From positions 69,928 through 115,269 of the forward strand of contig NZ_AOIS01000037.1 in the NCBI RefSeq assembly GCF_000337495.1: a stretch of DNA of 45,342 nucleotides. Reading direction: 5' to 3'. The DNA comes from Haloterrigena salina JCM 13891. GTDB taxonomy: Archaea > Halobacteriota > Halobacteria > Halobacteriales > Natrialbaceae. Each line of letters begins with the position of its first letter. Position 1 is the first letter of the stretch. Under the pieces are notes generated by a model, which saw nothing but the letters and a program-made list of their open reading frames with translations, was not told where the DNA came from and did no database searches. The position numbers were made by a program, and so were the translations under genes. Shown in pieces: positions 6,014-37,567 of this stretch.

Positions 6014-6205
6014 CGGTCGTGCGAGTGCGGTCGCTCGAGTAGCGGTGGGACTTCGGTTGGAAGGAGGGGCCGCAGGGATCGAAAACGGGCCGTTACGGAC
6101 CGAGGAACCCATCTGCGGTGGCGCGCGCTGTGACCGGCCGAGCGAAAGCGAGGCCGGGAAGCAAATCCGTGCGAGGTCTTCGTGAGTGAAACGAACGAAG
6201 TCGTT

Positions 6206-6479
6206 CGAGACGGCGAAGCCGTCTCGTGATGCGAAAATCTCCGATTTTCAGCAGCTTGGAAGGCGCGAAGCGTCTTCCAGTGGATGAGCGACCATCGGGA
6301 GTGAATTGGCTGGGGAGGTGGTGGCACCTCCCCGTTGCCACGGTAGCAAGACGCTTGTTTCATCGATACTTTTTGAGATCACGATTTAGATTGCGTCTGA
6401 ACGGAACACGTGTTCGCACGTCTAGGAACGGTTCATCTGCCGCTACCGTGGCAGCAGTGATTCCACGTCCTCCCCAGCC
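6206..6479. repeat. Cluster of perfect hairpins and a larger imperfect inverted repeat
   Basis: The 705-base spacer between idsA and gltX has no convincing gene. It holds consecutive palindromes: CGAGACGGC/GCCGTCTCG (6206-6226), GAAAATC/GATTTTC (6233-6249), TGGAAG/CTTCCA (6257-6278) and GGGGAGGTG/CACCTCCCC (6312-6333). GGCTGGGGAGG (6308-6318) and GCCACGGTAGC (6337-6347) recur inverted as GCTACCGTGGC (6442-6452) and CCTCCCCAGCC (6469-6479), with near-equal internal spacing of 18 and 16 bases. This is the form of a small non-autonomous element or palindromic intergenic repeat. No transposase remains. The rest, 6014-6205 and 6480-6672, shows nothing further that I can name. Confidence 0.6.
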
Positions 6480-6672
6480 GACTCGCGCACTGTCGTCGAC
6501 CCTCCTCACTCGCGTTCGGCGGGTCGACAGTGCGCACCACCGTATACCGACCGGTCCGCCGTCAGAACGAATCGAACGTCGGCGTCACCGCCGCAGAATT
6601 CGCGAGGGAGGTCCCGCAAACGATGCGTGGACATCGCGGACGTTTTGGTCCGGGCACGACTATCGCAGCGTA

Positions 6673-8445
6673 ATGAACGACGAGTTGCGCGAGCGCATCG
6701 AGCGCGAGGCCGAGAAGCACGCGCTGTTGAACGCCGTCAAACACGAGAGCGACGCCGACGTCGGCGCGATCATGGGGCCGCTGATGGGCGACAACCCCGA
6801 CTTCCGCGAGCACGGCGACGAGATTCCGGGCATCGCCGGCGGCGTCATCGGCCGAGTCAACGACCTCTCGTACGAGGAGAAACGCGAGCGCCTCGAGGAC
6901 CTCGCCCCCGAGGAACTCGCCGAGATCGAGGCCGAGGACGAGGAGGACGAACACGACCTCCCCGACCTCCCGAACGCCGCGGAGCCGAGCTCCGCGAGCC
7001 CTGACTCGCAGGCTCATCAGGACGCCGACGAGTACGACGAGATTCGGATGCGCGTCGCGCCCAACCCCAACGGCCCGTGGCACGTCGGCCACGCCCGGAT
7101 GCCCGCCGTTATCGGCACCTACAAGGAGCGCTACGACGGCTGGTTCTGCGTCCGCTTTGACGACACCGATCCCGAAACGAAACGCCCCGATCTCGAGGCC
7201 TACGACGCCATCCTCGAGGATCTCGACTACCTCGGCTTCGAGCCCGACGCGACCTACAAGGCGAGCGATCGCCTCGAGACCTACTACGAGCACGCCCGCG
7301 AACTGATCGACCTCGGCGGGGCCTACACCTGCTCGTGTTCCGGCGAGGAGTTCTCTGAGTTGAAAAACAGCGGCGAGCCCTGTCCCCACCGCGAGAAGGA
7401 CGTCGAGACGGTCCGCGAGGAGTTCGAGGCCATGGTCGACGGCGAGTACGACAGCGGCGAGATGGTCCTGCGGGTCAAGACCGACATCGAGCACAAGAAC
7501 CCTGCGCTCCGGGACTGGGTCGGCTTCCGAATGATCGACACGCCCCATCCCCGCGAGGAGGCCAGCGAGTACCGCTGCTGGCCGATGCTCGACTTCCAGT
7601 CCGGCGTCGACGACCACCTCCTCGAGATCAGCCACATCATCCGCGGCATCGACCTTCAGGATTCGGCGAAGCGCCAACAGTTCGTCTACGATTATTTCGG
7701 GTGGGACTACCCCGAAGTCGTCCACTGGGGCCACGTCCAGATCGACGCCTACGACGTGAAGATGAGCACGTCGACCATCGCCGAACTGATCGAGGACGGC
7801 GAACTCGACGGCTGGGACGATCCGCGCGCGCCGACGCTCAAGAGCCTCCGCCGGCGGGGCATCCGCGGCGAGGCCATCGTCGAGGCGATGGCCGGGCTGG
7901 GCACGTCGACCAGCGACGTCGACCTCGCGATGAGTTCGATCTACGCGAACAACCGCGACCTGATCGACGAGGAGACCGACCGCCGCTTCTTCGTCCGCGA
8001 GGGCAACCAGCTCCCGATCTCCGGCGATCCGCCCGCGGAGGCGAACCCGCCGCTCCATCCCAACCACGAGGAGCGCGGCGTCCGCGAGATTCCCGTCAGC
8101 GACTCCGTGATGCTCGAGCCCGAGGACGTGCCCGAGGCCGACGAGCGCATCTGGCTCAAGGGACTCGGCTGCTTCCGGTACGCCGAGGGGGCACTCGAGT
8201 ACACGGACGACGATATCGACGTGGTCCGAGAAGGCGAGGTCGATGTCGTCCACTGGGCCCCGGCGAGCGAGAGCGTCGCCGTCCGGATGCGCACACCCGA
8301 CGGCGACGTGCGCGGCCACGCGGAACCCGGCGTCGGCGACCTCGCGTCCGACGAGATGGTGCAGTTCGAACGCGTCGGCTTCGCGAGAATCGACCGCCAC
8401 GACGACGAGGAAGAGGAGACCGTCGTCTACTACGCGCATCCCTAA
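6673..8445 (+). CDS. gltX: Glutamyl-tRNA synthetase (archaeal type)
   Basis: Charges tRNA with glutamate. The 590-residue protein is the archaeal GluRS, with a class I catalytic core and a GlnRS-like beta-barrel anticodon domain. PNPNGPWHVGHARM carries the HIGH motif (HVGH near 136-139), and VKMSTST carries KMSKS near 363. FDDTDPETKRP is the glutamate-site segment. The N-terminal helical domain (1-110) is joined to the core by a linker containing an extra Ser/Ala/Pro/Gln-rich insert (SSASPDSQAHQD). At DNA level this insert resembles the repeat in the histidine kinase at 35.8 kb. ATG 6673 matches the conserved MNDELRERIEREAE start. The longer frame upstream runs through the hairpin cluster and is rejected. 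Confidence 0.95.
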   Translation: MNDELRERIEREAEKHALLNAVKHESDADVGAIMGPLMGDNPDFREHGDEIPGIAGGVIGRVNDLSYEEKRERLEDLAPEELAEIEAEDEEDEHDLPDLPNAAEPSSASPDSQAHQDADEYDEIRMRVAPNPNGPWHVGHARMPAVIGTYKERYDGWFCVRFDDTDPETKRPDLEAYDAILEDLDYLGFEPDATYKASDRLETYYEHARELIDLGGAYTCSCSGEEFSELKNSGEPCPHREKDVETVREEFEAMVDGEYDSGEMVLRVKTDIEHKNPALRDWVGFRMIDTPHPREEASEYRCWPMLDFQSGVDDHLLEISHIIRGIDLQDSAKRQQFVYDYFGWDYPEVVHWGHVQIDAYDVKMSTSTIAELIEDGELDGWDDPRAPTLKSLRRRGIRGEAIVEAMAGLGTSTSDVDLAMSSIYANNRDLIDEETDRRFFVREGNQLPISGDPPAEANPPLHPNHEERGVREIPVSDSVMLEPEDVPEADERIWLKGLGCFRYAEGALEYTDDDIDVVREGEVDVVHWAPASESVAVRMRTPDGDVRGHAEPGVGDLASDEMVQFERVGFARIDRHDDEEEETVVYYAHP

Positions 8446-35542: not shown

Positions 35543-37567
35543 TCACTCGCTGCCGCCGTCCGAGACGACGAACTTCGCCCCGTCGTCGTAGCTCTCGTCG
35601 ACGGCGATCGTCCAGTCGTGTGCCGAGACGATGCTCTCGACGATCGCCAGCCCGAACCCGGTTCCGTCCTCGGCCGTCGTCGCCCCGTACTCGAAGACGT
35701 CGTCGACGGCGTCCGTCGGGATGCCGGGGCCGTCGTCGGCGACGTAGAAGCCCGTCTCCGTGGGACCGACCTCGATGCTGACGCTCGAGTCGCCCTGCTG
35801 GACGGGGTTTTGCTCGGGGTGGGGGACGGAACTCGTGGAGCCGTGCTCCACGGCGTCCTCCTGAGCGTGCGAAGGAGGGCTTGTCGAGCCATGCTCGACA
35901 CTGTCGTCGGCCTGCGGCCGACTGTCCGTGGAACCGTGTTCCACGCTATTCTCCTGAGCGTGCGACGGAGAGCTTGTCGAACCGTGTTCGACACTGTTCC
36001 GGAAGAGGTTCTCGAACACGCGCAGGAGCCGCTCCCGATCGGCCTCGAACGTCCGGTTGCCGACCACCGATACCGTCGCGTCCTCGTGGTCGACGTTCGC
36101 CCAGGCGTCGGCGGCGACGGACTCGAGGTCGACCGAGACGGTGTCGTTGATAGTATTCTCCTCCCGGGCGAGCGCCAGCACGTCGTCGATGATCGTCTCC
36201 ATGCGCTCGTGGGACTCGTCGATCCGCGTCGCGTACTCACGGAGTTCCTCGAGGTCGACGCCCTCGGACTCGACGTCGGCGAGCTTCGACTCGAGGAGCT
36301 CCCGGTAGCCGTCCGCGACGTTCAGCGGGTTGCGCAGGTCGTGGCTGACCGTACTCGCGAACTGGTCGAGGCGTTCGTTCTGTCGCGTGAGTTTCTGACT
36401 GGAGCGTTCGGCCCGTTTTCGGGCCGCCTCGGTCTCCCGGATCTGCGTCCGGAGGGCGTCTCGCATGGCCGCAAAGGAGGTGAACAACCGCCCGATCTCG
36501 TCCTCGCGGTCGGTTCGAAGATCGACGTCGAACTCGCCGTCCTCGAGCGCCCGGGTCCGCTCGCGCAGTCGGATCAGCGGGAGGACGGTCCCGCGGCCGA
36601 GCACGAGTCCGACGACGGCGAGGGCGGCGAGCGAGGTGACGATCAGGACGGCGACGTTCCGGCCGACGGTCTCGCCGGCCTGATAGAGCTGCGCCTTGGG
36701 GGCCTCGGCGACGACGATCCAGTCGGTGCCGTCGACGGGAGCGAACGCGAACACGTCGGACTCGCGGTCGTGAATCGCCGTCTCTCCGTCGCGAGCGGCG
36801 TCGAACGCCGACGAGTCCGAGAGGGGCGCCGGCCGGGACTGGCGCGGGGCGGCCACCTCGCGGCCGCCGGCGGTCAGGACCCGCGTCGTCGTGATCGTCT
36901 CCGATCGGTAGAGCTGTTCGAAGCCCTGCCGGACGTCGGCGACGACGACGAGGACGCCGTCGCCGACGCGAACCGGACGGGCGAACGCCATCAGCAGGCG
37001 GCCGTTGCGTTCGTAGGCGCGATCGGACGACGCGATCGGGTCGCCGTCGCCCGAGTCGGCGGTCGCCCGCTCGATCGGATCGCTCCAGGCCGGGACCGTC
37101 GTCGCGACCGACTCCCCCTCGTACTCCGGGTCGGTACTCGCGACGATCTCGTCGCTCTCCGGATCCACGTAGTGGGCGCCCACGACGTCCTCACCGGCCA
37201 GCGCCTGCGAGTCCCGTAAGTGGTCCCTGATCGCCTCCCGGTCTCGAGTGCCGTAGACGTCCGACGTCGCGATCCCGCGCGTCTGGCTCTCGATCCCGTC
37301 GATCCACTCGCTGACGGCGTCTGACTGGACCGTTGCGGTCGATCGGAGGGTATCCTCCGCGTCAGCTTCGATGATCCCCTGAATCTGAACGTAACTGACC
37401 ACGCCGATGCCGGCGATCAGCAGGACGACGACGAAGAGCGCGAGCGCGAGTTTCAGCGCGTAGCTGCGGCGGACGACGCCGGGCACGACCGAGCGCGCGA
37501 CTCGCGAGACGAGCGACCGCTCCGGGTCCCCCTCGCGTTCCCCCTCCGGTGGACCCGACTCTGTCAT
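35543..37567 (-). CDS. Cache-HAMP sensor histidine kinase with repeat insertion in the ATPase domain
   Basis: A 674-residue kinase. A first membrane helix (about 38-60), an extracellular Cache-like sensor domain (about 60-285), a second helix (about 290-312), HAMP (313-370), a short coiled coil, and HisKA with the phospho-acceptor in VSHDLRNPLNVADGY (near 409) follow in order. HATPase_c has N box LFRNSVEHG, G1 VADDGPGIP and G2 GTGFGLAIVESI. Directly after the N box, four 15-16-residue units each carrying (S/A)VEHGST repeat before the domain resumes. No response regulator is adjacent. ATG 37567 has an AT-rich promoter about 30 bases upstream. The GH5-like gene follows 99 bases later on the same strand, so they may be co-transcribed. 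Confidence 0.9.
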   Translation of the reverse strand: MTESGPPEGEREGDPERSLVSRVARSVVPGVVRRSYALKLALALFVVVLLIAGIGVVSYVQIQGIIEADAEDTLRSTATVQSDAVSEWIDGIESQTRGIATSDVYGTRDREAIRDHLRDSQALAGEDVVGAHYVDPESDEIVASTDPEYEGESVATTVPAWSDPIERATADSGDGDPIASSDRAYERNGRLLMAFARPVRVGDGVLVVVADVRQGFEQLYRSETITTTRVLTAGGREVAAPRQSRPAPLSDSSAFDAARDGETAIHDRESDVFAFAPVDGTDWIVVAEAPKAQLYQAGETVGRNVAVLIVTSLAALAVVGLVLGRGTVLPLIRLRERTRALEDGEFDVDLRTDREDEIGRLFTSFAAMRDALRTQIRETEAARKRAERSSQKLTRQNERLDQFASTVSHDLRNPLNVADGYRELLESKLADVESEGVDLEELREYATRIDESHERMETIIDDVLALAREENTINDTVSVDLESVAADAWANVDHEDATVSVVGNRTFEADRERLLRVFENLFRNSVEHGSTSSPSHAQENSVEHGSTDSRPQADDSVEHGSTSPPSHAQEDAVEHGSTSSVPHPEQNPVQQGDSSVSIEVGPTETGFYVADDGPGIPTDAVDDVFEYGATTAEDGTGFGLAIVESIVSAHDWTIAVDESYDDGAKFVVSDGGSE
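35810..35998 (-). repeat. In-frame tandem repeat inside the histidine kinase gene
   Basis: 63 codons (units of 16, 15, 16 and 16) each begin with VEHGST, derived from the real N-box NSVEHG, and continue with SSPSHAQE, DSRPQADD, SPPSHAQE or SSVPHPEQ. The reading frame is kept throughout. The third unit contains a 30-base stretch (35852-35881) matching 24 of 30 bases of the insert in gltX. Confidence 0.85.

Follow-up and report, generated by a model that had tools for sequence, protein, structure and literature searches.

Results

The window analysed here is a 45,342-nt stretch of the Haloterrigena salina JCM 13891 genome. On its minus strand, positions 35543–37567 hold a coding sequence of 674 aa, which open reading frame and domain assignment identify as a histidine kinase with dCache_1, HAMP, HisKA and HATPase_c domains, and in which the HisKA, N, G1 and G2 motifs were all found. 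Downstream of FENLFRNS the protein reads VEHGSTSSPSHAQENS-VEHGSTDSRPQADDS-VEHGSTSPPSHAQEDA-VEHGSTSSVPHPEQNPVQQG, and VEHGST occurs four times, starting at 35992, 35944, 35899 and 35851 with spacings of 16, 15 and 16 residues, in agreement with the position and spacing that an initial annotation of this DNA had given for a repeat after the N box. That annotation counted four repeat units; the four VEHGST copies stand, but only three units are inserted, because the sequence behind the fourth copy is like the native loop of the insertion-free orthologue in the congeneric genome G181.

The insertion (48 + 45 + 48 nt, in frame, 35852–35992, minus strand like all features of the kinase) consists of units with two hairpins each. 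Unit 1 (VEHGSTSSPSHAQENS, 35945–35992, 48 nt) contains H1 GTCGAAC-ACG-GTTCGAC at 35976–35992 and H2 TCTCC...GGAGA at 35950–35971; unit 2 (VEHGSTDSRPQADDS, 35900–35944, 45 nt) contains H1 GTGGAAC-ACG-GTTCCAC at 35928–35944 and H2 GTCGGCC-GCA-GGCCGAC at 35906–35922; and unit 3 (VEHGSTSPPSHAQEDA, 35852–35899, 48 nt) contains H1 GTCGAGC-ATG-GCTCGAC at 35883–35899 and H2 CCTCCT-N10-AGGAGG at 35857–35878. The fourth VEHGST, with an H1 of its own (GTGGAGC-ACG-GCTCCAC, 35835–35851), and the native loop SSVPHPEQNPVQQG occupy 35792–35851. The rest of HATPase_c, with G1, ATP lid and G2 (35564–35800), is intact by domain match and predicted structure, as had been noted for G1 and G2. When folded as single-stranded DNA, the 191-nt repeat stretch gave a z of −4.2. 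The H. salina genome has three further kinase arrays (C18, C28 and C47).

The window also holds a single copy of the element outside the kinase, found by pattern match at 6979–7026 on the plus strand (AEPSSASPDSQAHQDA), in frame in the open reading frame of a glutamate–tRNA ligase (GltX, 6190–8445, plus strand). This 48-bp copy reads GCGGAGC-CGA-GCTCCGC GAGC CCTGAC-N10-ATCAGG ACGCC, and its site is empty in the congeners G192 and G181.

Comparison of orthologous kinases revealed turnover by whole units. The G292 orthologue (94% identical) has the same three units as the window kinase, the G192 orthologue (96% over the N-terminal part) has one, and the G181 orthologue (89% identical), which reads MEHGTTSAASRTEHPVVQQGGPSV, has none; its native loop MEHGTTSAASRTEHPVVQQGG aligns with SSVPHPEQNPVQQG of the window. 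The copy-number variation that the initial annotation had expected is therefore real, with 3, 3, 1 and 0 units in four congeneric orthologues and a different array in a fifth, that of G197 (83% identical). Because the window genome and G292 both carry three units, though G192 is the closer of the two to the window genome, the simplest history for G192 would be the loss of two whole units. Among 19 pairs of orthologues at or above 80% identity upstream, 11 had unequal unit numbers. The arrays are not an assembly artefact of this genome, since congeners carry related arrays of other lengths and arrays also occur in closed chromosomes such as NZ_CP100400.1 (L018). Some arrays lie at contig ends (G112 C21; G098 C3 and C38), and thus seem to break short-read assemblies, so that unit counts from draft genomes may be too low.

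The array pattern, defined as two perfect hairpins, was present in 79 of 292 genomes of class Halobacteria (a single genome for each species), representing 33 of 77 genera; the reversed pattern had 0 matches in the same 292 genomes, so that chance does not account for the arrays, and none of 204 genomes sampled from the rest of the phylum had them. At the protein level, a search found 80 named loci in haloarchaea, some of them on closed chromosomes. The first 29 loci derived from the pattern, which span several kinase subfamilies, all follow a histidine-kinase N box in frame, and tandem arrays reached about 8 units. Among later loci there was one exception to this placement, L031 (2195–2259, MAG QH_7_69_31), where the array lies in a kinase REC–PAS linker at a chance GACGCCGTCGAGCAGGG; the loop of its second H2 lacks 7 nt, and the domains downstream are in another frame. 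Other apparent non-kinase arrays, six in the first set and some later ones, mostly reflected the limits of the motif expression, leaving L031 as the only real array away from an N box.

Across these genomes, a unit consists of two consecutive hairpins, H1 then H2, with a length of 45, 48 or 51 bp, flanked by GAC-GCC- or GAC-AGC-like sequence. H1 has a 7-bp stem and a 3-nt loop and takes the form GTSGARC-NNN-GYTCSAC in kinases, read as VEHGST. H2 is variable in sequence and has 7 bp + 3 nt, 6 bp + 10 nt or 10 bp + 3 nt. All 380 H1 were in frame 0 and all 216 spacings were multiples of 3; extraction for the 380 required an open frame to G1, and an unbiased locus set was also wholly in frame. A third, longer unit type of about 99–102 nt (...SEPSVADAPEDAVEHG), with a GGAAGN..NCTTCC hairpin, was seen between ordinary units at L002, L003, L006, L009, L012 and L033.

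The initial annotation read the repeat as a protein-level copy of the N box, whereas the conserved feature is the paired DNA structure. H1 covaried synonymously in 146 units from 84 loci (Fisher p 1e-23 for Val3/Ser3 and 9e-22 for Glu3/Gly3). H2 covaried at the cost of amino acid changes, as in SPPSxAQED (CCTCCT/AGGAGG), SPDSxARQD (CCTGAC/GTCAGG) and SPRSxAPED (CCTCGG/CCGAGG), or in the set SRTxSDD, NRTxSGD and SRPxADD; in the 45-nt class its pairs were 89–97% Watson–Crick against 36–95% expected, with mutual information up to 1.44 bits. In 31 units, each from a different genome, 98.2% of stem-pair cells were paired compared to 83.2% in shuffles, and standard stem changes were two-sided in 72 cases and one-sided in 2 (0 of 500 shuffles as high), with shared ancestry left in place by the shuffles; slid controls, which likewise keep relatedness, paired at 24–45%. 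The scarcity of one-sided intermediates across lineages favours a templated, simultaneous change of both arms. Between close orthologues (19 pairs), 12 one-sided and 11 two-sided stem changes were seen, with one-sided changes also between the window and G292, so that old copies evidently decay as well and pairing is imperfectly kept in some copies. The most economical model would be one of turnover, in which new copies come with matched arms and old ones decay. No clear trend of hairpin decay with distance from the N box was seen over the first four hairpins.

Adjacent H1 hairpins were unlike each other. Only 21 of the 115 adjacent first pairs agreed in V3 (0 of 5000 shuffles), maximally different neighbour combinations dominated, and both variable stem positions differed in most; this fits either recombinational loss of identical neighbours or a need for independent folding. 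At L113 and L090 a mid-array H1 is flipped, giving VEPCST for VEHGST, as if the hairpin or unit had been inverted. Unrelated kinases within one genome share near-identical units, and the H2 spacers of paralogues in the same genome were more alike than those of other genomes in the genus (0 of 2000 permutations). In G275 an identical spacer occurs in two kinases whose adjacent 60-nt flanks are just 43% identical, and such sharing despite dissimilar flanks implies that units move or convert independently of their flanks.

Copies outside kinases, first found with a pattern for the 48-nt H2, showed that the element is not confined to N boxes. Their H1 takes the form GCGGARC...GYTCCGC, read as AExSSA; searching the class with two patterns, in which H1 was GCVGARC or GCSGARC, yielded 31 and 13 matches, against 0 for the control. 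The hosts include a rhodanese/metallo-beta-lactamase (MBL) hydrolase with two to three sites, GltX, haloarchaeal Mre11, AMP-binding acyl-CoA synthetases, an ETF domain, an S9 peptidase, SnoaL-like, NUDIX and HerA-like ATPase proteins, and a few kinases. With two exceptions, L279 and L336, whose ORFs are short and uncertain, every copy whose context was read lies in frame in an ORF. Filled and empty sites differ by exactly 45 or 48 bp. Empty sites join LPNA to DEYDEI in GltX (G192 and most relatives), YLADA to DDLGVDL and RGVTYA to DELTTA in the MBL hydrolase, and AVDDD to VDAVVHAGDL in Mre11. At the GltX site, other genera of the family carry the insert but congeners do not, and this patchy occupancy indicates that the insertion is recurrent, transferred or often lost. 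The possibility that the 3' arm of H1 is copied from each host target is weakened by the MBL and GltX empty sites, at which the whole H1 comes with the insert. Mre11 is an enzyme that processes DNA hairpins, and in three genomes of one genus it carries the palindromic element itself (L327, L337–L339). Low-complexity ORFs of G243 (L290, L292, L293) are built from a mixture of numerous palindrome types, among them SSASPxS and SEPSLADAREDA, and give the impression that non-essential ORFs collect such elements.

In most cases NACGCC or GACAGC precedes the site and a G comes after it, and units end similarly. The kinase motif N-A/S-V is encoded by AAC-GCC/AGC-GTS, identical to the target in both sequence and frame. 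A GACRNC-like repeat flanks the element, with letters that differ between the two sides in many copies and exact ends that are ambiguous within it, and comparison of the sequence on both sides gave no clear support for a simple target-site duplication. Nor does the frame of the target alone account for the in-frame bias, given that ACGCCG stands in the needed frame in 38% of cases (63 of 167, window), below the near-total in-frame share.

AlphaFold2 models of 37 kinase cores had pLDDT values of about 78–97 over most of the folded core and 45–50 over the array, which is predicted to be a loop between the N-box helix (117–135) and the strand 203–208 before G1. The models therefore place the array away from the ATP lid, near which the initial annotation had located it, and predict a disordered loop. 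Because H1 encodes VEHGST, the N-box residues are kept; survival at N boxes would require an H1 coding for VEHG, as is seen.

Discussion

We consider it highly probable that the kinase repeat belongs to a family of palindromic DNA elements in Halobacteria, which are very short (45, 48 or 51 bp), are probably mobile and occupy coding genes in frame. Its spread through haloarchaeal genomes, its tandem arrays at one conserved kinase motif and its in-frame presence in unrelated genes give it the look of mobile DNA tolerated by proteins, not of a trait that the kinase evolved. Of the two options in the initial annotation, altered activity or simple tolerance, tolerance fits better.

Movement of such an element might proceed as follows. 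Copies would move between sites as units, each insertion recreating its own target; the N-A/S-V motif has the same sequence and frame as that target, and such re-targeting would lead to tandem arrays at N boxes. New copies would acquire matched arms by a templated process, for example hairpin template switching or the action in trans of a hairpin-recognising nuclease or transposase. Copy number could then be altered by unequal exchange between units, and in-frame copies would survive because proteins may tolerate the hydrophilic insert of 15–17 residues as a disordered loop. A more speculative possibility, which we hold tentatively and regard as rather doubtful, is that the element conserves its shape and not its sequence, with both sides of the stem rewritten at each hop by templated fold-back synthesis, a host-specific H1, and neighbours kept different. 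If true, DNA would have a new means of spreading within coding sequence, one templated by hairpins.

In kinases, much could be explained without transposition by tandem duplication together with gene conversion from one N box to another. One alternative is that the array arose when the kinase's own N-box codons expanded by strand slippage or unequal recombination, with paralogues swapping units by gene conversion through N-box sequence. Units do end in VEHG, copy number changes by whole units, certain arrays (G160, G135) contain numerous identical units, and N-box DNA is common to about 55 HATPase_c genes of the H. salina genome. H2, however, covaries strongly although nothing in the native N box corresponds to it, GltX, MBL hydrolase, Mre11, acyl-CoA synthetase and other genes carry the same H1–H2 element, and kinases with dissimilar flanks contain identical spacers. 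We therefore regard this origin as unlikely, and reject expansion of a protein repeat because the stems covary and non-kinase copies exist; slippage or recombination at the N box may nevertheless be a route of array growth and shrinkage once a unit is present.

Compensatory stems within coding sequence, and neighbouring hairpins as different from each other as independent folding would need, could also reflect selected mRNA hairpins acting in the transcript through translation pausing, stability, attenuation or ribosome bypass. This seems very improbable to us, given that presence and number vary between close orthologues and that the hosts are functionally unrelated. Bypass would not need the frame, which is always kept (380 H1). 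On the sense strand, G.T (G.U in RNA) pairs were fewer than A.C mismatches in both H2 (19 vs 36) and H1 (6 vs 11), a soft test confounded by codon constraints; the low share is not what RNA-level selection predicts, and we infer that the structure acts on DNA and not on RNA. We give even less credence to the idea that the insert works as a peptide module by which kinase activity or phospho-relay specificity is tuned. The site directly behind the ATP-binding N-box helix is recurrently occupied, as such a module might be, but the H2 peptide varies freely while DNA pairing holds, the array is predicted to be disordered, the G181 orthologue has no unit at all, and similar peptides occur in non-kinases.

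Small mobile DNA of this kind can add disordered loops to important proteins, including a tRNA synthetase, Mre11 and kinases. At the N boxes of haloarchaea, it gives rise to differences in loop length and, it seems, to some of the breaks in assemblies. To our knowledge, Rickettsia is the main source of known selfish palindromes inside proteins, which have usually been treated as a curiosity. The archaeal family spans many haloarchaeal genera, including the genetically tractable Haloferax, and the combination of empty sites, a copy-number series and strong covariation makes the origin, movement and upkeep of coding palindromes directly testable.

The open-licence literature searched gave no match for VEHGST in kinases and no prior description of archaeal in-frame palindromic elements, and a term search of an archaeal two-component census found no mention of such inserts (PMC5847659). 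Several known systems nevertheless share some of the traits of the haloarchaeal element. REP and BIME sequences of enterobacteria and pseudomonads are short repeats that form hairpins and can occur as pairs or arrays; they are typically extragenic, whereas the haloarchaeal non-kinase copies are nearly all in frame in ORFs. Haloquadratum walsbyi contains MITEs, PATEs and SMRs (PMC3119063), which, like our element, are haloarchaeal, short, transposase-free, palindrome-bearing or with inverted repeats, and partly target-selective. SMRs are 80–110 bp in length, with strong target preference, no target duplication and an enigmatic mobilisation, and are inserted in other mobile elements (PMC3119063); our units are shorter than both SMRs and PATEs and lie in frame in housekeeping genes. 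Nematomorpha mitochondria have near-perfect inverted repeats embedded in functional coding sequence, as here, with a mean repeat length of 43 bp and an origin discussed in terms of template-switch type correction (PMC6649704). These palindromes, unlike the haloarchaeal element, lie in conserved protein sequence, and no repeated family with empty sites was described for them (PMC6649704).

The best reading is that the element may be an archaeal counterpart of the Rickettsia palindromic elements (RPEs), smaller, tandem-forming and structurally conserved. RPEs, as summarised in later accounts of Ogata 2000/2002, are about 150 bp in length and comprise several families found in frame (PMC10969869). 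The likeness, as far as those accounts go, lies in short palindromic DNA of more than one family, in frame in unrelated coding genes and tolerated by the protein. The haloarchaeal element is likewise an in-frame palindrome in unrelated coding genes, present or absent at orthologous sites (GltX, MBL hydrolase, Mre11 and the window kinase). It differs from RPEs, compared here by description, in its size of 45–51 bp, its two hairpins per unit, its tandem arrays at one hot spot, and its archaeal host, being found in class Halobacteria alone among the genomes searched. RPEs are said to lose repeat identity over time (PMC6649704), whereas the haloarchaeal stems keep 98% pairing with two-sided changes across genera.
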